Assembly: GCA_028692715.1 (NCBI GenBank)
Contig: JAQUWU010000007.1
Span: forward strand, 1 to 64,000
Origin: Paludibacter sp.
GTDB lineage: Bacteria; Bacteroidota; Bacteroidia; Bacteroidales; Paludibacteraceae
Direction: 5' to 3'
Length of the DNA: 64,000 nucleotides
Shown here: piece after piece, positions 27,028 through 34,379 of the stretch
Layout: every line of letters begins with the position of its first letter
Numbering within the stretch: the first letter of the stretch is position 1
The notes under the pieces: generated by a model
Seen by the model: the letters and a program-made list of their open reading frames with translations, nothing else
Told to the model about the DNA's origin: nothing
Database searches by the model: none
Position numbers and translations under genes: made by a program

Positions 27028-27840
27028 TTATTCCTTTAATTTTGTCATTAACAAATTAACACCTTTCTCTACATTCTGCGATTCATCCAATGCTTTGATA
27101 AACGCACTTCCAATAATAGCTCCTGAAGAATAACGATTTACCATGTCGATGGTAGATTTATTGGAAATACCAAAACCAATCAATCTAGGGTTTTTCAGAT
27201 TCATTGCATTTATTCTATTAAAGTAATCCACTTTGTTATCGAATGAATTTTGGGTGCCGGTTACAGCTGCTGACGAAACCATGTAAATAAATGCATCAGT
27301 ATGACTGTCAATTTCGCGGATACGATCTTCTGATGTCTCTGGCGTTATTAAAAATATAAATTTAAGACTATATTTTTCGGCAACGTCTTTGTATTCTTCC
27401 AGAAAATCGGACATAGGTAAATCTGGAATTATCATTCCGTCCACTCCTACTCTATTACATTCACTACAAAACTCTTCAAAGCCAAATTGCATAACCGGAT
27501 TTAAATAACCCATCATGACCAATGGAATATGAATATGTTCGCGGACTTCGGTCAATTGACTGAAAAGTTTTCGAATGCTCATTCCATTCTTTAATGCCCG
27601 TTGACTGCTATTCTGAATCACAACACCATCAGCCATAGGGTCGGAAAACGGCACGCCGATTTCTACTAAATCCACTCCATTTGCCTGAAGACTTTTTAAT
27701 GTTGGTATCGTATCATCCAGTTTTGGAAATCCTGCTGTAAAATATACCGACAGAATATTTTCCTTTTTACGTTCAAATAATAGATTAATTCTGTTACCCC
27801 CAACCCCTAAAGGGGAGCTGAAGTTAGTTTTTATTCCCAT
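27028..27840 (-). CDS. trpA: Tryptophan synthase alpha chain
   Basis: Splits indole-3-glycerol phosphate to indole and glyceraldehyde 3-phosphate, passing indole to TrpB. The protein has 270 residues; the normal enzyme start (NRINLLFERKK) appears at residue 16. The catalytic Glu and Asp are in DLVEIGVPFSDPMADG, and the phosphate-binding GFGISN is near 220. Residues 1-15 (TNFSSPLGVGG) are encoded by the palindromic repeat inserted behind the start codon. It is the last gene of the trp operon and is followed by the shared terminator. Confidence 0.96.
   Translation of the reverse strand: MGIKTNFSSPLGVGGNRINLLFERKKENILSVYFTAGFPKLDDTIPTLKSLQANGVDLVEIGVPFSDPMADGVVIQNSSQRALKNGMSIRKLFSQLTEVREHIHIPLVMMGYLNPVMQFGFEEFCSECNRVGVDGMIIPDLPMSDFLEEYKDVAEKYSLKFIFLITPETSEDRIREIDSHTDAFIYMVSSAAVTGTQNSFDNKVDYFNRINAMNLKNPRLIGFGISNKSTIDMVNRYSSGAIIGSAFIKALDESQNVEKGVNLLMTKLKE
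27797..27829 (-). repeat. trp repeat, 5' copy, translated in trpA
   Basis: Palindromic core TCCCCTTTAGGGG followed by TTGGGGG, preceded by AAAACTAACTTCA, on the coding strand. Translated in frame as T-N-F-S-S-P-L-G-V-G-G directly after the start of TrpA. Faces the copy at the end of trpF. Confidence 0.85.
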
Positions 27841-27877
27841 ATTATATATTTTTTATAAAAAGTTAAAGTAAAATGAA

Positions 27878-28612
27878 CTAATTAAATTTCCCTTTAGGGG
27901 TTAGTGGTTGTTTTATTTCTTTTATAAATTCTCCCAGCAATTCAACATTTTTTTCTCCCGGTTTTAATTCAAATTTACTGTTTAAATCAATTCCTACGAA
28001 TTTTGGATGTTCAATTTTTAAAATGGCTTCACCGTCATCGGGTGCAATTCCTCCACTCAACAAGAATGGTGTTTCACCTTTATATTCATTCAATATCGAC
28101 CAATCAAATTTAACGCCTGATCCTCCAAAAGCTTCGGTTTTAGTATCAAAAAGGAAATAATCACATGCACCTTCGTAGGTTTTAGTAACTATAAAATTAT
28201 AAGCCTCTGCTATTGGGAACGCTTTGATAACAATCAAACCGGTATCACGCAATTCTTTACACATTTCAACCAATTCGACTCCATGCAACTGAACTCCATC
28301 CAGTTCATATTTATAAACAGTTGTAAGAATATTTTCCTCCGTTTCGTTCACAAAAACTCCAATTTTTTTTATTGATTTTGGAATTGATTTCAATGAATCA
28401 ACATTCAATGGTTCGGCATAACGTGGTGATTTGGGATAAAATATAAATCCCATAAAATTAGGCTGTAAACCTGCAACTAACTTGATATTTTCGGGATACT
28501 TCATTCCGCAGATTTTGATGCGAAACCCCCTAGCCCCTAAAGGGGAATTGATTCCTAACCCATTAGGGGGAAATGAATTAGCTTCGTCTTGTATGTTCAT
28601 CTCGTTGTTCAT
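27878..28612 (-). CDS. trpF: Phosphoribosylanthranilate isomerase
   Basis: Amadori rearrangement of phosphoribosylanthranilate to CdRP, fourth step of tryptophan synthesis. The (beta-alpha)8 core begins at FRIKICGMKYPENIKLV (residue 30; catalytic Cys in KICGM) and includes GVQLHG, FLFDTK with the catalytic Asp, and LLSGGIAPDD. The protein has 244 residues, about 35 more than usual: residues 1-29 (ANSFPPNGLGINSPLGARG) come from a double 5' repeat, and the last residues (QPLTPKGKFN) come from the 3' repeat copy. Confidence 0.95.
   Translation of the reverse strand: MNNEMNIQDEANSFPPNGLGINSPLGARGFRIKICGMKYPENIKLVAGLQPNFMGFIFYPKSPRYAEPLNVDSLKSIPKSIKKIGVFVNETEENILTTVYKYELDGVQLHGVELVEMCKELRDTGLIVIKAFPIAEAYNFIVTKTYEGACDYFLFDTKTEAFGGSGVKFDWSILNEYKGETPFLLSGGIAPDDGEAILKIEHPKFVGIDLNSKFELKPGEKNVELLGEFIKEIKQPLTPKGKFN
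27888..27911 (-). repeat. trp repeat, 3' copy, translated in trpF
   Basis: CACTAACCCCTAAAGGGAAA on the coding strand, opposite in orientation to the 5' copies. It encodes P-L-T-P-K-G-K at the C-terminus of TrpF before the TAG stop. Confidence 0.8.
28525..28585 (-). repeat. trp repeat, double 5' copy, translated in trpF
   Basis: Two palindromic cores in tandem (CCCCCTAATGGGTTAGG and TCCCCTTTAGGGGCTAGGGGG on the coding strand), preceded by AAGCTAATTCA. Translated as A-N-S-F-P-P-N-G-L-G-I-N-S-P-L-G-A-R-G. Confidence 0.85.
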
Positions 28613-28643
28613 ATATCTTTTAAAATAAATAGTTGTAATCTAG

Positions 28644-28690
28644 CTCCCCTTTAGGATTTCCTCCTGACAAATGAGGGAGGGGTTAGAGGT
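28644..28690 (-). repeat. trp repeat, 3' copy, supplies the trpC stop codon
   Basis: On the coding strand CTCTAACCCCTCCCTCA and, after a short insertion, CCTAAAGGGGAGC. The TAA stop of trpC is part of the CTAACCCC motif. The copy looks interrupted compared with the others. Confidence 0.75.
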
Positions 28691-29555
28691 TCTTTATTTT
28701 ACCAATAAACTTCCCTAATGCTTCCGCCGGATTCTCCTCTTTCATAAAGTTTTCTCCCATCAGAAAACCCTTATACCCTACTTTACGAAGTTCATTTACT
28801 GTTTCAATTTTTGAAATTCCACTTTCGCTCACTTTTACAAATTTATCGGGTATCAGCTCGGCCAAATCATACGAAGTCTGAATGCTTTGCTCAAAAGTTT
28901 TAAGGTTACGATTGTTTACACCCAACATATCCACAAAATCGTTGGCATGACTAATTTCTTCTGCATTGTGTACTTCCAATAACACTTCCAATCCTAACTC
29001 ATGCGCTTTTTGTGCAAGATACAATGTCTTTTCAACGGTCAACGCTGCGGCAATCAACAAAATTACATCAGCTCCAATGGCTTTTGCTTCGTACAATTGA
29101 TATTCATCAATAATAAAATCTTTGCGCAAAACGGGACAAGCAATAAATGGACGGGCTGCGATCAAATCCATAGGAGTCCCTCCAAAATACTCCAAATCAG
29201 TAAGAATTGAAATCCCGGAAGCACCAGCAGCACTATAACCCGAAGTAATATCTACTACATCAGCATCTTCATGAATCCAACCTAACGAAGGTGATTTGCG
29301 TTTAAATTCAGAGATAATTCCAGAATTAGAATTTAGTAAGCTTTCCTTCATAGACAAACACTTCCGCGAAAATGCCGGGGCTTTTTCCAATGAAGAAATT
29401 GGGAATTGTTGCTTACGTAATTCTACTTCAATGGCTTTGGAAGCTATTATTTTATCTAAAATATTACCCCTAGCCCCTGAAGGGGAACTGACCCCTAACC
29501 CTTGAAGGGGAACTGAGTTAGTTTTGTCTTGCATCTCTTTCTTCTTTTCAATCAT
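28683..29555 (-). CDS. trpC: Indole-3-glycerol phosphate synthase
   Basis: Ring closure and decarboxylation of CdRP to indole-3-glycerol phosphate. The enzyme core begins at NILDKIIASKAIEVELRKQQ (residue 32) with SIEQ-like substrate motifs: EFKRKSPSLGWIHEDADV, VLRKDFIIDEYQLYEAKAIGAD, LEVHNAEE and VSESGIS. It has 290 residues against about 260 for the family; the excess is residues 1-31, which include DKTNSVPLQGLGVSSPSGARG from a double repeat. The stop codon also falls in a repeat copy. Confidence 0.96.
   Translation of the reverse strand: MIEKKKEMQDKTNSVPLQGLGVSSPSGARGNILDKIIASKAIEVELRKQQFPISSLEKAPAFSRKCLSMKESLLNSNSGIISEFKRKSPSLGWIHEDADVVDITSGYSAAGASGISILTDLEYFGGTPMDLIAARPFIACPVLRKDFIIDEYQLYEAKAIGADVILLIAAALTVEKTLYLAQKAHELGLEVLLEVHNAEEISHANDFVDMLGVNNRNLKTFEQSIQTSYDLAELIPDKFVKVSESGISKIETVNELRKVGYKGFLMGENFMKEENPAEALGKFIGKIKNL
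29467..29525 (-). repeat. trp repeat, double 5' copy, translated in trpC
   Basis: Coding strand: AAAACTAACTCAG, then TCCCCTTCAAGGGTTAGGGG, then a second TCCCCTTCAGGGGCTAGGGG. This is the clearest consensus copy and is translated as K-T-N-S-V-P-L-Q-G-L-G-V-S-S-P-S-G-A-R-G. Confidence 0.88.
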
Positions 29556-29583
29556 TTTGTCAATTAAAAGTAATATTTTTTAC

Positions 29584-29610
29584 TCCCATTTAGGGGCTAG
29601 GGGTTGTTTT
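29584..29610 (-). repeat. trp repeat, 3' copy after trpD
   Basis: Coding strand ACAACCCCTAGCCCCTAAATGGGA begins at the last bases of the trpD stop codon. Opposite in orientation to the trpC 5' copy, which it faces across the junction. Confidence 0.8.
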
Positions 29611-30604
29611 ATTTATATATCTCCACAAACTTCTCAAACGTTTTTTTCGCATTCCCTCCTGCCAACGAATCAGAAGCTTCTACGATACATTGTTCTATTG
29701 TTTTGTAAGGCATGCGGGTTAATATGGCAAAAGCAGAATTTATAATCACAGCATCACGTTGAGCATTTGTAGCTTTATTGTCAAGCACATTCATAAAAAT
29801 TTCTGCAGCATCTTTTACCGAATTTCCACCCCAAAGTTCTTCTTGTTTCAGGGTTTTAAATCCTAATTGTTCTGGCGTATATACAAATTCTCCCATGCTA
29901 CTCACCACTTTACAAGTATCCGTAAGTGATATTTCATCGAAACCATCCAGGGAATGAACAATGCTGTATTGTACGCCTAAATTTTGATAAATATAATTGT
30001 ACAAACGCATCATTTTCAAACTATATACACCTAAACATTGATAATGAGGGCGAACCGGACTAATCAATGGACCAAGTACATTAAAAAAAGTGCGAACACC
30101 CAAATTTTTACGAACCGGAGCCACATTTTTCATGGCCGGATTGCAAATAGGTGCGTGCAAATATGCAAATCCTGATTTTTCCAACGATTGCTTTATTACA
30201 TTGATATCTGTTGTGAATTTTGCGCCGTAATATTCCAATACATTGGAAGAACCACTAACAGAAGTGGCACCATAATTTCCATGTTTTGCCACTTTATAAC
30301 CAGCACCGGCGACAGCAAAACAACTACATGTAGATATATTAAACGTATTTTTTCCATCACCACCGGTTCCAACAATATCCAGAGCGTCAAATTCTGACAA
30401 ATCCATTGGGATTGCGAGCTCCAACAATGCATTTCGGAATCCAATCACTTCTTCAAGTTCAATACTACGCATCAAATAAACTGAAATAAACGCAGCAATT
30501 TCTGCATCATTGTATTTTCCCGCAGCTATATTAGTCATCACCTCAGCGGCTTCTGTTCTCGAAAGAGACTGGTGATTAAAAAGTTGATTAAGTATTTGTT
30601 TCAT
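29609..30604 (-). CDS. trpD: Anthranilate phosphoribosyltransferase
   Basis: Attaches phosphoribose from PRPP to anthranilate. The length of 331 residues is standard, and the protein starts with the ordinary family N-terminus MKQILNQLFNHQSLSRTEA, so this is the only trp enzyme here without a repeat-derived extension. PRPP-binding GTGGDGKNTFNIS (about 78-90), KHGNYGATSVSGSSN, the anthranilate-binding VRKNLGVRTFFNVLGPL and the DGFDEIS motif are present. A variant repeat sits just upstream of its ATG instead of behind it. Confidence 0.97.
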   Translation of the reverse strand: MKQILNQLFNHQSLSRTEAAEVMTNIAAGKYNDAEIAAFISVYLMRSIELEEVIGFRNALLELAIPMDLSEFDALDIVGTGGDGKNTFNISTCSCFAVAGAGYKVAKHGNYGATSVSGSSNVLEYYGAKFTTDINVIKQSLEKSGFAYLHAPICNPAMKNVAPVRKNLGVRTFFNVLGPLISPVRPHYQCLGVYSLKMMRLYNYIYQNLGVQYSIVHSLDGFDEISLTDTCKVVSSMGEFVYTPEQLGFKTLKQEELWGGNSVKDAAEIFMNVLDNKATNAQRDAVIINSAFAILTRMPYKTIEQCIVEASDSLAGGNAKKTFEKFVEIYK

Positions 30605-30607
30605 AAG

Positions 30608-30640
30608 ACCTCCTCCCGGCCTCCCCCAAAGGGGGAAGAT
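30608..30640 (-). repeat. trp repeat, variant 5' copy just before trpD
   Basis: Coding strand TTCCCCCTTTGGGGGAGGCCGGGAGGAGG ends four bases before the trpD ATG and is not translated. The core is CCCCC-TTT-GGGGG, a longer-arm variant. It also places a purine-rich GGAGGAGG just ahead of the start codon. Confidence 0.75.
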
Positions 30641-30708
30641 ATACGGGTATAATGCGATTTGTTTACTAAGAAATATGTTTCAAGTTTATATAATTTTCGG
30701 AATTCGCT

Positions 30709-31380
30709 CTATTCCCCTCCTTTGGAGGGGCTCGGGGAGGTGAGCCAATTTTTCAACATTCTCTCTCCATCAGGAGTCAAAACCGATTCTGGATGAAACT
30801 GAACACCGCGAACATCATAGCTTTTATGTGCTAAAGCCATAATCATACCTTCTTCATCTACGGCAGTAATAGTTAAACAATCAGGCAAAGTTGTTTTTTC
30901 AACAGCCCATGAATGATAACGTCCTACTTCAATTTTTTTATCCAATCCGTTGAAAAGAACATCATCTTCCAACACATCTACTATTGAACTAACACCGTGA
31001 TGAACGTCAGTAAGGTTAATCAGAGTGCCACCAAATGCTTCTGCTATTGCTTGTTCGCCTAAACAAACTCCCAATATCGGTTTTGTGGGTGCATAAGTAC
31101 GAATTACATCCAGCAAAATTCCTGATTCTGATGGAACTCCGGGACCCGGCGAAAGAATAATTTTATCAAAACGTGCAATTTCTTCCAACGTAATTTGGTC
31201 ATTGCGATGCACTTCCACATCCGTGTATCCCAATTTTTTAATTGCATGTACCAAATTATAGGTAAATGAGTCGTAATTATCGAAAACTAAAATTGATATG
31301 CCCCCTTGCCCATTTGAAGCAGATGCCCCCCTACCCCCTAAAGGGGGAGTTGAATTAGTATCTTCCTTTATATTTTTCAT
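30709..31380 (-). CDS. trpG: Anthranilate synthase component II (glutamine amidotransferase)
   Basis: Supplies ammonia from glutamine to TrpE. Class I amidotransferase core from ISILVFDNYDSFTYNL (residue 28): oxyanion-region LSPGPGVPSESG, nucleophile Cys in LGVCLGEQ, and catalytic His and Glu in VQFHPES. The position after the nucleophile motif is Glu (GEQ) where many homologues have His or Met. The protein has 223 residues; residues 1-27 (DTNSTPPLGGRGASASNGQGG) and the C-terminal SPSPSKGGE are repeat-encoded. It lies between trpE and trpD. Confidence 0.95.
   Translation of the reverse strand: MKNIKEDTNSTPPLGGRGASASNGQGGISILVFDNYDSFTYNLVHAIKKLGYTDVEVHRNDQITLEEIARFDKIILSPGPGVPSESGILLDVIRTYAPTKPILGVCLGEQAIAEAFGGTLINLTDVHHGVSSIVDVLEDDVLFNGLDKKIEVGRYHSWAVEKTTLPDCLTITAVDEEGMIMALAHKSYDVRGVQFHPESVLTPDGERMLKNWLTSPSPSKGGE
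30712..30743 (-). repeat. trp repeat, 3' copy, translated in trpG
   Basis: Coding strand CACCTCCCCGAGCCCCTCC-AAA-GGAGGGGA. It encodes T-S-P-S-P-S-K-G-G-E, the C-terminus of TrpG, before the TAG stop. This is the longer-arm (CCCCTCC) subtype. Confidence 0.82.
31301..31359 (-). repeat. trp repeat, 5' copy, translated in trpG
   Basis: Coding strand TACTAATTCAAC, then TCCCCCTTTAGGGGGTAGGGGGG, then a degenerate second unit. Translated as T-N-S-T-P-P-L-G-G-R-G-A. Confidence 0.83.
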
Positions 31381-31436
31381 GATTTTTTTGATTTTTTGCT
31401 CTGATTATATACATTCTCTTCTTATCCCCCATCTTA

Positions 31437-31463
31437 TTCCCCCTTTAGGGGGTTAGGGGGCCG
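31437..31463 (-). repeat. trp repeat, 3' copy after trpE
   Basis: Coding strand CCGGCCCCCTAACCCCCTAAAGGGGGAA directly follows the trpE stop codon. Inverted relative to the trpG 5' copy. Confidence 0.83.
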
Positions 31464-31464
31464 G

Positions 31465-32925
31465 TTATTTTGCTGTTGCTGCCATTATCGCTTTTTTCAG
31501 TGCAGCCAACTTATTATTCACTTCCTGTAATTCACTTTCTTCGTCCGATTTGGCGACAATTCCCGCTCCGGCCTGATAATAAAGCGTATTATTTTTACTC
31601 ACAAAAGAGCGAATGGTAATGGCTTGATTCATGCTACCATCAAATCCGATATAACCCAAACAACCGCCATAAGGGCCACGATCGTGTGGTTCAATACTAT
31701 CAATCAGCTGCATAGCTTTAATTTTAGGAGCTCCGGAAAGCGTTCCTGCCGGAAATGTGTCGGCAAATAGTTTGATTACTTTTGTATCCGGTTTCATTTT
31801 TCCACTAACGCTCGAAACCAAATGTAATACATGCGAATAATACTGCACTTCGCGGAAAACATCCACTTCCACATGATCAGTATTCCTACTCAAATCGTTA
31901 CGTGCTAAATCAACCAACATAACATGCTCTGCATTTTCCTTTTTATCAGTGCTGAGCTTTTCAGCCAATTCCATGTCTTTTTCATCATTACCTGTACGGC
32001 GGAATGTTCCTGCAATAGGTTTGATGTAAGCTTTTTGTTTTTTTGCATCAACTATAAGGTGCGCTTCAGGTGAAGAACCAAAAATGCGGAAATCTCCAAA
32101 ATTAAAATAAAATAAGTAGGGTGAAGGATTTACAGAGCGCAAAGTTCGGTACAACATAAAATCGTCGCCTTTAAAGTCCTGATAAAAACGGCGGGAGAGC
32201 ACAATTTGAAAAACGTTTCCTTTAAAACATTCTTCCTTCCCACGGGTCACCATTTTTTTATAATCCTCATTAGAAATATCACATTTTTCTTCGCCAACGG
32301 CAGAAAATTCGTAAGTTGCAATATTGTTGTTCAATAAAATTTCCTCAATTTCGTAAATTTTCGACGTCTCACCTTCGAGTAAATTTTCAATTATTGTCAG
32401 TTCATTATTAAAATGATTGACCGCTATAATATATTTAAACAACACATAATGAAGTCCCGGCATACTTCCGGGTACGGTTTCGCGGGCTGAAAGTTTCACA
32501 TCTTCGAAATATTGAACCGATTCGTAAGATGAGTAACCGAATAAACCGTTAATTCCAAGCGGATTATCATTTTTTAATAACTCTACAGATTTTAAAAACA
32601 CGTCAAATCGGTCTGCAACAGTCAGTTTCTCAGTCACGGGTGTTTCTATTATTGTTCCATCAGGATACTCCTCTTTAATTACAAAGTGGTTTACAGAAAT
32701 TCCTCCTATAGCACAAAATCCAATGTAAGAGTAACTATTTTCCAAACCATGATAATCAGAACTTTCAAGCAGTACTGAATTGGTATATAAATCGCGTATT
32801 TTAAGATAAATTCCTACCGGTGTTTGCAAATCGGCCAGCATTTTTTTTGAATTAACAAAAAGCCTGCCCCCAACCCCTGAAGGGGAGTTTGAGTTAGTTT
32901 TGTCTTCAATTTTTATATTTTCCAT
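31465..32925 (-). CDS. trpE: Anthranilate synthase component I
   Basis: Converts chorismate to anthranilate using ammonia from TrpG; first committed and feedback-controlled step. The enzyme proper begins at RLFVNSKKMLADLQTPVGIYLKIRD (about residue 21). The tryptophan-binding LLESS motif is intact (VLLESSDYHG), so feedback inhibition is expected. Catalytic blocks GSSPEAHL, KPIAGTFRRTG, LSGAPKIKAMQLID and GPYGGCLGYIGFDG are present. It has 486 residues, about 20 above the family norm because residues 1-20 (DKTNSNSPSGVGG) are repeat-derived. Confidence 0.97.
   Translation of the reverse strand: MENIKIEDKTNSNSPSGVGGRLFVNSKKMLADLQTPVGIYLKIRDLYTNSVLLESSDYHGLENSYSYIGFCAIGGISVNHFVIKEEYPDGTIIETPVTEKLTVADRFDVFLKSVELLKNDNPLGINGLFGYSSYESVQYFEDVKLSARETVPGSMPGLHYVLFKYIIAVNHFNNELTIIENLLEGETSKIYEIEEILLNNNIATYEFSAVGEEKCDISNEDYKKMVTRGKEECFKGNVFQIVLSRRFYQDFKGDDFMLYRTLRSVNPSPYLFYFNFGDFRIFGSSPEAHLIVDAKKQKAYIKPIAGTFRRTGNDEKDMELAEKLSTDKKENAEHVMLVDLARNDLSRNTDHVEVDVFREVQYYSHVLHLVSSVSGKMKPDTKVIKLFADTFPAGTLSGAPKIKAMQLIDSIEPHDRGPYGGCLGYIGFDGSMNQAITIRSFVSKNNTLYYQAGAGIVAKSDEESELQEVNNKLAALKKAIMAATAK
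32866..32899 (-). repeat. trp repeat, 5' copy, translated in trpE
   Basis: Coding strand AAAACTAACTCAAAC, then TCCCCTTCAGGGGTTGGGGGC. Translated as K-T-N-S-N-S-P-S-G-V-G-G. Confidence 0.87.
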
Positions 32926-32960
32926 AAGAATAAATTAAATAATCAGTACTAATATTTTTT

Positions 32961-33018
32961 CCTCCCCTTTAGGGGCTGGGGGTAATCTTTTCTTATTCCC
33001 CCTTTAGGGGGTTAGGGA
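32961..33018 (-). repeat. trp repeat, two 3' copies at the end of trpB
   Basis: The first (33018 to 32996) reads CCCTAACCCCCTAAAGGGGGAA on the coding strand and encodes P-N-P-L-K-G-E at the TrpB C-terminus. The second (32983 to 32961) reads CCCCCAGCCCCTAAAGGGGAGG in the spacer after the stop codon. Confidence 0.83.
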
Positions 33019-34273
33019 CAGTGTTAAAATACTTTACATAAGTATCCATATCCTTATCACCTCTGCCCGAAACTGTTAAAACAACAATGTCATCGGGTTT
33101 AAAATTATCTTTTTCTTTTTTTAGTAATGCCAATGCATGAGCCGATTCAATGGCCGGAATAATTCCCTCTAAACGTGTAAGTTCAAATGCTGCATCCATA
33201 GCTTCATTGTCGTTAATGGCATAAACTTTCGTTCGTCCTACTCTGGCAAAATGAGCATGTGCCGGTCCAATGCCGGGATAATCTAATCCTGCTGAAATTG
33301 AATAAGGCTCCGTTATTTGACCATCTTCATCTTGCATAAGCAACGTTTTGAAACCATGTATAATCCCAACAGTACCAATACTTATTGTTGCCGCAGTTTC
33401 TCCCGTTTCGATTCCTAATCCACCTGCTTCAGCCGAAATTAATTGAACACGTTCATCATTCAAGTAATGATAATACGTTCCCATAGCATTACTTCCACCA
33501 CCTACACATGCCATCAGACAATCAGGATAATCACGTCCTATTTTTTCTTGCAATTGCCATTTTATCTCTTCACTGATAACCGATTGAAAAAATCCAACCA
33601 TATCGGGATATGGATGTGGACCAACTGTTGAACCAATAATATAAAACGAATCTGGATTGGAACACCAGTATCGAATTGCTTCGTTGGTTGCATCTTTCAA
33701 TGTCCAGTTTCCACTTGTCACAGGTTCAACAGTTGCACCAAGCATGCGCATTTTTTGAACATTCAAATATTGACGTTCTACATCCGTTTTTCCCATAAAA
33801 ACAATACATTCCATTCCCATCAAAGCACAAGCAGTAGCCGTAGCAACGCCATGTTGTCCGGCGCCTGTTTCAGCTATAATTCTGGTTTTACCCATTCGTT
33901 TTGCCAATAAAATTTGACCTAATGCATTATTAATTTTATGTGCCCCGGTATGGTTCAAATCTTCACGTTTCAGGTAAATATTAGTTCCGTATTCAGTTGA
34001 AAGTCTTTTGGCAAAATACAAAGGCGATGGACGTCCCACATAATTTTTCAATAAATCGTAATACTCAGCTTTAAATGATGCATCATCTTTTATTGCAAAA
34101 TACGCTTTTTTCAATCGTTCAACAGTGCCATGTAATATCTCCGGAATATAGGCTCCACCGAATTCACCGTAGAAACCGTTCTCATCAATACCTCCAGCTC
34201 CAAAAGAGCCCCTGGTCCCTACAGGGGAACTGAGGTTAGCTTTGTTCTGCATATTTTCTTTTATATTTTTCAT
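32993..34273 (-). CDS. trpB: Tryptophan synthase beta chain
   Basis: PLP enzyme joining indole and serine to make tryptophan. With the ATG at 34271-34273 it has 426 residues; the longer frame starts with TTG and is less likely. The conserved enzyme begins at ENGFYGEFGGAYIPEIL (about residue 32); PLP-binding Lys is in HTGAHKINNALGQ, with the GAGQHGVATA and CVGGGSNAMG loops. Residues 1-31 contain KNIKEN, QNKANL and SSPVGTRGSFGAGG from the repeat region; the C-terminal NPLKGE is also repeat-encoded. It is first in the operon, directly after the attenuator. Confidence 0.96.
   Translation of the reverse strand: MKNIKENMQNKANLSSPVGTRGSFGAGGIDENGFYGEFGGAYIPEILHGTVERLKKAYFAIKDDASFKAEYYDLLKNYVGRPSPLYFAKRLSTEYGTNIYLKREDLNHTGAHKINNALGQILLAKRMGKTRIIAETGAGQHGVATATACALMGMECIVFMGKTDVERQYLNVQKMRMLGATVEPVTSGNWTLKDATNEAIRYWCSNPDSFYIIGSTVGPHPYPDMVGFFQSVISEEIKWQLQEKIGRDYPDCLMACVGGGSNAMGTYYHYLNDERVQLISAEAGGLGIETGETAATISIGTVGIIHGFKTLLMQDEDGQITEPYSISAGLDYPGIGPAHAHFARVGRTKVYAINDNEAMDAAFELTRLEGIIPAIESAHALALLKKEKDNFKPDDIVVLTVSGRGDKDMDTYVKYFNTVPNPLKGE
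34208..34241 (-). repeat. trp repeat, 5' copy, translated in trpB
   Basis: Coding strand AAAGCTAACCTCAG, then TCCCCTGTAGGGACCAGGGGCTC, a more degenerate core than the others. Translated as K-A-N-L-S-S-P-V-G-T-R-G. Confidence 0.78.
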
Positions 34274-34310
34274 TTCAAATATATTTAACAATCAATAGTA
34301 GTGTTTCTTT

Positions 34311-34332
34311 CTCCCCTTTTGAGGTAGGGGTA
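34311..34332 (-). repeat. trp repeat, copy between attenuator and trpB
   Basis: Coding strand TACCCCTACCTCAAAAGGGGAG, in the 3'-type orientation, lies just beyond the attenuator terminator and faces the trpB 5' copy. With it, the leader-trpB gap has the same inverted pair as the gene-gene junctions. Confidence 0.75.
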
Positions 34333-34340
34333 ATTATAAC

Positions 34341-34379
34341 AAAAAAGGCTTATCGTGAGTTCCGACAAGCCTTTTTTGT
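34341..34379 (-). terminator. trp attenuator terminator
   Basis: On the minus strand AAAAAAGGCTTGTCG pairs with CGATAAGCCTTTTTT (one G-U) around a seven-base loop, followed by the U-run. Bases 34352-34359 (loop plus 3' arm) are exactly complementary to 34418-34425 in the leader, giving a competing antiterminator. Confidence 0.92.

Follow-up and report, generated by a model that had tools for sequence, protein, structure and literature searches.

The described systems closest to the element reported here are REPINs (paired repetitive extragenic palindromic sequences, REPs) and BIMEs (bacterial interspersed mosaic elements) with their REP-associated tyrosine transposases (RAYTs, or TnpA-REP), prokaryotic MITEs (miniature inverted-repeat transposable elements), Rickettsia palindromic elements and homing endonucleases. 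Each of these has part of its anatomy, and we know of no system that combines the whole. The element was seen in a 64-kb stretch of Paludibacter sp. DNA (positions 1 to 64,000 of contig JAQUWU010000007.1, assembly GCA_028692715.1; the window from here on), where tails-out pairs of GC-rich palindromic arms are present at all seven junctions of a trp operon. We lean, with little more than even confidence, to reading these pairs as solo modules of a palindrome-armed, homing-like mobile element of Bacteroidota that is borne by a DUF559 gene (PF04480).

The accessible parts of two papers define REPs as including GT[AG]G or CGTC at the foot of the hairpin (PMC6006769, PMC3733652), and those of the second also report REPs inside genes. 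Like REPINs and BIMEs, the arms are short palindromes in inverted, tails-out pairs, with two inverted palindromes as the unit, hundreds of copies, and a location mostly at gene borders. Unlike them, they have no cognate RAYT flanked by the same repeats among the loci searched. Their foot sequence differs from that of the GTAG/CGTC REPs, as far as these are given in the accessible part of PMC3733652: the consensus of 122 arms has TTAGGGG tails, and its hairpin foot lacks the tetranucleotide GT[AG]G (or CGTC). Furthermore, the trp modules have an asymmetric interior with an ATG and a leader, and the gene associated with the arms is DUF559.

Prokaryotic MITEs are likewise short and non-autonomous, with inverted ends and an internal open reading frame (ORF) that fuses to host genes. 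Terminal inverted repeats and dispersed copies variably present in relatives are found here too; the autonomous partner, unlike that of a MITE, would be a homing-type nuclease and not a transposase. As for Rickettsia palindromic elements, the accessible part of PMC10969869 describes palindromic repeats lying in frame in unrelated protein genes. In-frame palindromic inserts in unrelated ORFs occur here in the trp leaders and in PurL, a likeness of form only (the sequences were not compared), and the trp modules differ in apparently providing start codons as well, at the junctions of an operon. We know of no nuclease gene tied to the Rickettsia elements. Finally, EDxHD homing endonucleases are described in the accessible part of PMC3943268. 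DUF559 is like free-standing and intron-borne homing endonucleases (I-Bth0305I) in a profile match, to PDB 3r3p, and in that its inserts recur at one site of a given host gene. Unlike them, our element has palindromic arms and many nuclease-free solo copies; Pfam scans gave no intein domain, and the frame runs through without an intron.

The operon, trpB-E-G-D-C-F-A, lies on the minus strand of the window (gene names were given by eye and are supported by relatives' loci). The window was scanned with the arm pattern CCCCTTYAGGGGNTNGGGG, allowing up to 4 mismatches. All 20 raw matches, which include shifted copies of one arm, fall within 27797-34331, against 0 or 1 match in each of 20 shuffles. 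A preliminary description of this DNA had claimed opposed palindrome pairs at all seven junctions, and the scan bears it out; three pairs (before trpB, G-D and C-F) are decayed or of a related subtype, and at F-A, D-C, E-G and B-E both arms are within 2 mismatches of the pattern. On the coding strand, a pair consists of an arm (CCCCTAACCCCTAAAGGGG), an A+T-rich interior, an ATG at six of the seven junctions and a second arm (CCCCTTTAGGGGTTAGGGG). As had been stated, six of the seven start codons fall between the two arms, with trpD as the exception, and the same scan gave no arm match 3' of trpA, also as stated. The claim that the arms can pair with each other agrees with RNA folding of the four junctions with good arms, where arm-to-arm stems are predicted (-32.7 to -53.5 kcal/mol, z -3.7 to -6.4).

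At six junctions the second arm sits inside the next gene, in the only open frame of the arm, SPLGVxG. Homology starts were taken from relatives' loci (n=80), and in most relatives homology begins past the leader: at residue 35 in TrpB, about 20-27 in TrpE, about 28 in TrpG, about 31 in TrpC, mostly 29-32 in TrpF and 16 in TrpA. The leaderless trpD aligns with its relatives from residue 1. The trp junction modules appear to supply a start codon and a presumably translated leader peptide to the adjoining genes.

In terms of the whole genome (G000; 4.85 Mb, 122 contigs), the family has 308 matches with up to 2 mismatches, against 2 in a reversed control. Pair geometry was read in 822,691 bases of this genome, a sample partly chosen for arms and holding 123 of them. 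Among arm neighbours within 300 nucleotides (nt), 34 are tails-out, 8 are tandem and none is tails-in, which is the dispersed family of inverted pairs that the preliminary description had foreseen. The spacing of arms within pairs ranges from 32 to 154 nt, and a REPIN of fixed length was rejected on this ground. Co-directional ORFs enclose 32 of the 34 pairs, not clearly above the background (366 of 404 gaps under 200 nt), so no enrichment is claimed. The trp operon is a hotspot: in one scan, 5 of its 6 gaps bear pairs, against 3 of 151 co-directional gaps in contigs C34 and C43, which were used in full or almost in full. Over the window and ten sister genomes, 44 arm matches lie in trp versus 2.4 expected, and 33 remain without the window (ten of the eleven sister genomes with the operon read; G061, which has no genome count, was left out). 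Arms are present in trp in the window and in 6 of these 10 genomes, and absent in 4.

Family arm matches were found in 38 of 40 genomes of the genus, with counts from 0 to 526 per genome. What a given trp junction looks like depends on the species: such junctions hold family pairs, a GTTATTTGC..GCGTTATTA family, GTAGAGACGCAAGGCCTTGCGTCTCTAC palindromes or other repeats, or are near-empty, with the conserved ends in L161 only 28 nt apart at B-E and 57 nt at E-G. Some pairs are possibly inherited, by eye, with B-E similar in the sister genome G034 and D-C in G001 and G094. Since occupancy differs among sister species, the copies behave as mobile. The preliminary description would have given up its mobile-pair reading for arms scattered singly and at random, or for ordinary junction divergence lacking an insertion boundary; by this test the reading survives. 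The native start codon was not seen at the filled junctions compared, as if a short gap had been replaced. No target duplication was seen at the trp and PurL sites compared, by eye only and with no systematic test.

Some junctions have contents of their own. The trpG-trpD junction of L158 (G034) is nearly 400 nt long and holds imperfect tandem repeats (gacagatgtcattgtgaaggtt-like), with a diverged similar stretch in L161, and in L038 and L162 the same junction holds an insertion of about 1.3 kb with an ATPase-like reading frame (by eye). At the trpF-trpA junction of L161 (G144), where other species hold other repeats, there are two GTAG-tagged palindromes of GTAGGGACAGGTCG..CGACCTGTCC type, resembling double-foot REPs. 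Within the G000 sample, the most pair-loaded run after trp is a co-directional gene run at C51:19204-24535, pst/phoU-like by eye, with pairs at 3 of 6 gaps.

The interiors of the pairs are alike on the coding strand. With trp included, 27 of 528 comparisons score above the 99.9% level of the shuffles; when one interior is reversed, 3 of 528 do. The 28 non-trp interiors compared with six trp interiors gave a mean z of 3.0 in sense and 1.2 in antisense. From this likeness the unit seems to be asymmetric; it often includes an ATG together with a leader whose end is ..ACAAGACAAAACTAACTCAGTT.

As for the gene, 33 of the 82 listed DUF559 matches of the genus were examined (those with a locus, five weak ones excluded), comprising 18 stand-alone genes and 15 domains in long open frames. 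At up to 4 mismatches, family arms flank 13 of the 18 stand-alone genes on both sides, against 8 of 581 background ORFs (Fisher 9e-18; 4e-8 against RAYT loci), and an arm lies near on any side in 14 of 18, against 114 of 581. At up to 2 mismatches, 13 have an arm near and 10 have arms on both sides, with 98 and 3 of 581 in the background. DUF559 genes are present in the trp operon itself in 4 of the 40 genomes, beside or between arms. Three of them lie between trpB and trpE (G155, L042/L223; G105, L163/L234; G159, L226), a position that tblastn searches using TrpB and TrpE of the window confirm, and the fourth is a broken copy after trpE in G079.

In several stand-alone cases one module precedes DUF559 and another precedes the next gene. 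The DUF559-side module is composed of an arm, an A+T-rich stretch, an ATG, a leader such as ..IQDKTNS, and an arm. When 16 arm-pair interiors beside stand-alone genes were compared with the window's four clean trp interiors, 9 had a sense z above 3 (L216 9.0 and 8.3; L241 9.4; L226 6.8 and 4.6; L215 4.3, 3.9 and 4.4; L230 3.2), and antisense likeness was seen in 2, the same L216 pairs (3.6 and 3.4). Six hand-picked modules scored better than the full set (10.6, 13.0, 11.2, 6.8, 3.2 and -0.04). A further arm type, that of G223 and G269, was counted by hand, its pattern being nearly palindromic and most sites being doubled in raw totals: there are 15 sites in G223, of which five are around a DUF559 gene, 11 in G269, of which four are, and 22 in G000. 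Over the 40 genomes, arm number and the number of stand-alone genes (tallied by hand as open frames under 260 amino acids, weak or broken matches excluded) correlate with a Spearman coefficient of 0.72, or 0.62 after genome size, and the median arm number is 136 in the 21 genomes with such a gene versus 15 in the 19 without.

Two DUF559 clades have other surroundings. One (L221, L227, L239 and L242; FRRKLR..AAEVALW) is free of family arms and is preceded by GC-rich repeats of another kind, such as GAGCGAAGCGGAGGGG. Another, the third clade (L214, L217 and L219), has CCCCCAAATGGGGG-type arms and lies between NuoF-like and NuoG-like genes, by eye.

In the long open frames, the DUF559 insert is in frame and the host protein continues on both of its sides. 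A Pfam scan of 19 such ORFs from genus and phylum (E up to 1e-5) gave as hosts class I tRNA synthetases (assigned to IleS, ValS and LeuS partly by eye), UvrA, MetH, PurL, a TPR protein, an M23 peptidase, HsdR, HsdM and restriction-modification methylases, with no intein domain in any of them. Same-site insertion with empty alleles, as in homing, is seen in PurL, where 5 of 30 genus loci are filled at one site, 24 are empty and arm-free and 1 is masked; the PurL of G174, without a locus and outside the 30, was judged filled by position alone. In filled PurL alleles a variable stretch is shorter by about 7 to 11 residues. With 24 of 24 empty sites arm-free, arms and DUF559 would arrive together. 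Sites are also shared in LeuS (one common site in 5 of 6 read, with two families and different linkers), MetH (3 of 5 at one site, 2 at another), ValS (3 of 3) and IleS (2 of 3), and two HsdR inserts are unlike each other. A family arm at up to 4 mismatches lies near 11 of the 15 genus inserts, upstream in 8 and on both sides in 4.

PF04480 is present in 61 of 118 Bacteroidota genomes. Inverted arms flanking the phylum loci are above all 100 shuffles in 16 of 29, of which 5 are among the 12 in long ORFs, and these arms differ in sequence between lineages.

In an alignment of 24 DUF559 sequences, E15, D43, E54 and D56 are invariant. Among PDB entries, their profile hits 3hrl at E 7e-32 and, at E 4e-6, 3r3p, a "Mobile intron protein" that we take to be the catalytic domain of I-Bth0305I. 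From this relatedness and the acidic core, the DUF559 protein is predicted to be a Vsr-like or EDxHD-type nuclease of homing-endonuclease kind.

We can then sketch the element as follows. A full copy would have the GC-rich palindromic arms as its ends and DUF559 as its own gene. The gene-bearing form would occur in two settings, as stand-alone genes in operons and in frame in housekeeping genes with palindrome-coded linkers, the PurL arms being those of the trp family. The nuclease may cut arm or target DNA, with repair copying the element as in homing, and would be the likely driver of its spread. Solo modules, probably derived from full copies, would enter short gaps between co-directional genes, displace the native start region and give the adjoining gene another start codon, together with a leader that the arm encodes in frame SPLGVxG. 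The hotspot in the trp operon could be due to the DUF559 copies resident in the trp junctions of relatives.

Several observations weigh against this element. The sense bias of interiors outside trp is modest (sense higher in 19 of 28, p 0.036), and 7 of the 16 interiors beside DUF559 are unlike the trp interiors. The two arms of a pair are uncoupled within the genome (against swapped arms, p is 0.19 over the 30 pairs that lie outside the window). Four of the 18 stand-alone genes, all of one clade, have no family arms, and 13 of the 29 phylum loci have no significant inverted arms against 100 shuffles. At up to 2 mismatches a family arm is near only 3 of the 15 long-ORF inserts, 2 of them with arms on both sides (PurL in L225 and L228; the third is ValS in L212), and the remaining inserts have palindrome-coded linkers of other subtypes, by eye. 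Given these few close matches, and a background of 114 and 8 of 581 at 4 mismatches, most housekeeping inserts would carry other arm subtypes. The copy-number correlation ignores kinship among 40 genomes of one genus, and three genomes with fragmented assemblies have many arms and no intact stand-alone gene listed (G156 with 187, G158 with 160 and G169 with 126). Same-site inserts within the genus may be plain inheritance. Finally, the insertion sites resemble replacements of short host stretches.

A wider proposal is made more tentatively and may well go too far. DUF559 with lineage-specific arms could form a Bacteroidota-wide class of element, undescribed in the searchable papers, that sits unspliced within essential proteins or between the genes of operons, shedding solo start modules that rewrite the start codons and N termini of adjoining genes, with trp as its favoured nest in this genus. 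A link between DUF559 and palindromic arms was not found in the titles and abstract openings listed from the open-licence literature. If the proposal is true, the GC-rich palindromes of Bacteroidota gain a candidate autonomous partner, and DUF559, annotated as an "unknown" domain, becomes a testable homing-type mobile element. Repeated DNA could then be a source of start codons and altered N termini throughout an operon, and the palindrome-coded leaders, tails and linkers of predicted proteins (SPLGVGG, LTPKGE, PSPTGRGAGGEG) would be explained.

Of the alternatives, the best surviving, which we regard as unlikely, is that DUF559 genes are a second, independent mobile element homing into existing arms, with the arms as its target and not its ends. 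This would account for the many arms without DUF559 (in G000, 308 matches versus three intact stand-alone genes) and for the complete pair that often adjoins a stand-alone gene instead of enclosing it. It fits poorly with PurL, where the empty sites have no arms to serve as target and where DUF559 lies inside one family arm pair (L225 and L228), and with the pairing of DUF559 with different arms in different lineages. An arms-only insert in the IleS of L232, of another arm type and at the site of DUF559 in L208 and L210 (by eye), fits either reading.

A selected RNA device is less likely again. Here the pairs would form a long stem in the trp messenger RNA, with the start codon in the loop, and control stability, processing or translation. 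The strong stems predicted at four junctions and the trp hotspot in the window and sister genomes are what it would lead us to expect. Long arm-arm stems may indeed affect the messenger RNA, with no sign here of selection for them in arm coupling: within the genome this is not clear, as p is 0.05 for 34 pairs including trp (against swapped arms) and 0.19 outside the window. Coupling is strong over 69 pairs of the genus, which we read as due to species subtypes. Orthologous junctions are also near-empty or hold unrelated repeats, 4 of the 10 sister genomes have no trp arms, and the family occurs genome-wide and even inside PurL. The resident trp copies of DUF559 would give another reason for the hotspot.

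Lastly, the preliminary description had suggested a REPIN- or MITE-like family that filled the operon, with a RAYT elsewhere. Its form stands, in the genome-wide spread, the tails-out pairs and the differing sister junctions; the RAYT partner finds no support. The window's genome has seven Y1_Tnp genes, and among 30 RAYT loci of the genus none has family arms on both sides and 3 have any family arm near. Three of the seven (L004, L005 and L007) resemble Bacteroidetes TnpAY1 subclass 2.6 by motif. This subclass is flanked by atypical palindromes and its REPs are said to lack the foot as well, according to the accessible part of PMC6006769, so the missing foot alone is compatible with a RAYT. 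Non-family palindromes adjoin these three genes, by eye, and L007 is preceded, at a distance of about 190 nt, by a single family arm. The number of arms is correlated with this RAYT type too (0.44, p 0.005), yet in G001, a complete genome with 153 arms, a search at 1e-10 gave no L007-like RAYT. RAYT as the main partner was rejected on the 0 of 30 loci flanked on both sides and the other palindromes beside the three read, and ordinary REPINs moved by RAYT, with an incidental DUF559 link, are the least likely of the alternatives in spite of the inverted tails-out pairs, hundreds of copies and REP-like size. At C102:15103-21296 of G000, a stretch of about 6 kb holds two DUF559 matches, one of them containing a stop, along with two broken RAYT-like genes.

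Table 1. Genes and palindromic arms of the trp operon in the window, from trpB to trpA; mismatches are to the scan pattern.
Feature	Position	Strand	Remarks
Decayed pair before trpB	34209..34331	-	downstream arm 34209-34227 (trpB leader), upstream arm 34313-34331; 3 and 4 mismatches
trpB	32993..34291	-	listed ORF begins at TTG; ATG at 34273 is the likely start
B-E junction	32867..33017	-	downstream arm 32867-32885 in trpE leader, upstream arm 32964-32982; 0 and 0 mismatches
Extra tandem arm, trpB 3' end	32999-33017	-	scan, 1 mismatch
trpE	31465..32925	-	module-encoded leader MENIKIEDKTNSNSPSGVGG
E-G junction pair	31328..31458	-	arms 31328-31346 and 31440-31458; 0 and 1 mismatches
trpG	30709..31380	-	leader MKNIKEDTNSTPPLGGRG
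G-D junction pair	30616..30740	-	related but different subtype; arm 30616-30634; 4 mismatches each
G-D upstream arm	30714-30740 by eye; 30719-30737 in scan	-	
trpD	29609..30604	-	sole operon gene without module-coded leader; start codon (30604) outside the G-D pair
D-C junction	29467..29603	-	arms 29467-29485, tandem 29492-29510 (trpC leader), upstream 29585-29603; 0, 1 and 1 mismatches
trpC	28683..29555	-	leader MIEKKKEMQDKTNSVPLQGLGVSSPSGARG
C-F junction	28527..28689	-	downstream arm 28527-28545 (trpF leader), 0 mismatches
C-F upstream arm, interrupted	about 28646-28689	-	by eye; outside reach of the scan
Decayed tandem arm, trpF leader	about 28554-28570	-	by eye
trpF	27878..28612	-	leader MNNEMNIQDEANSFPPNGLGINSPLGARG
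F-A junction pair	27797..27907	-	27797-27815 in trpA leader, 27889-27907 at trpF end; 0 and 2 mismatches
trpA	27028..27840	-	leader MGIKTNFSSPLGVGG; no arm 3' of gene

Directly upstream of trpB, at 34341-34378, there is a terminator-like hairpin (AAAAAAGGCTT..AAGCCTTTTTT), possibly the trp attenuator.

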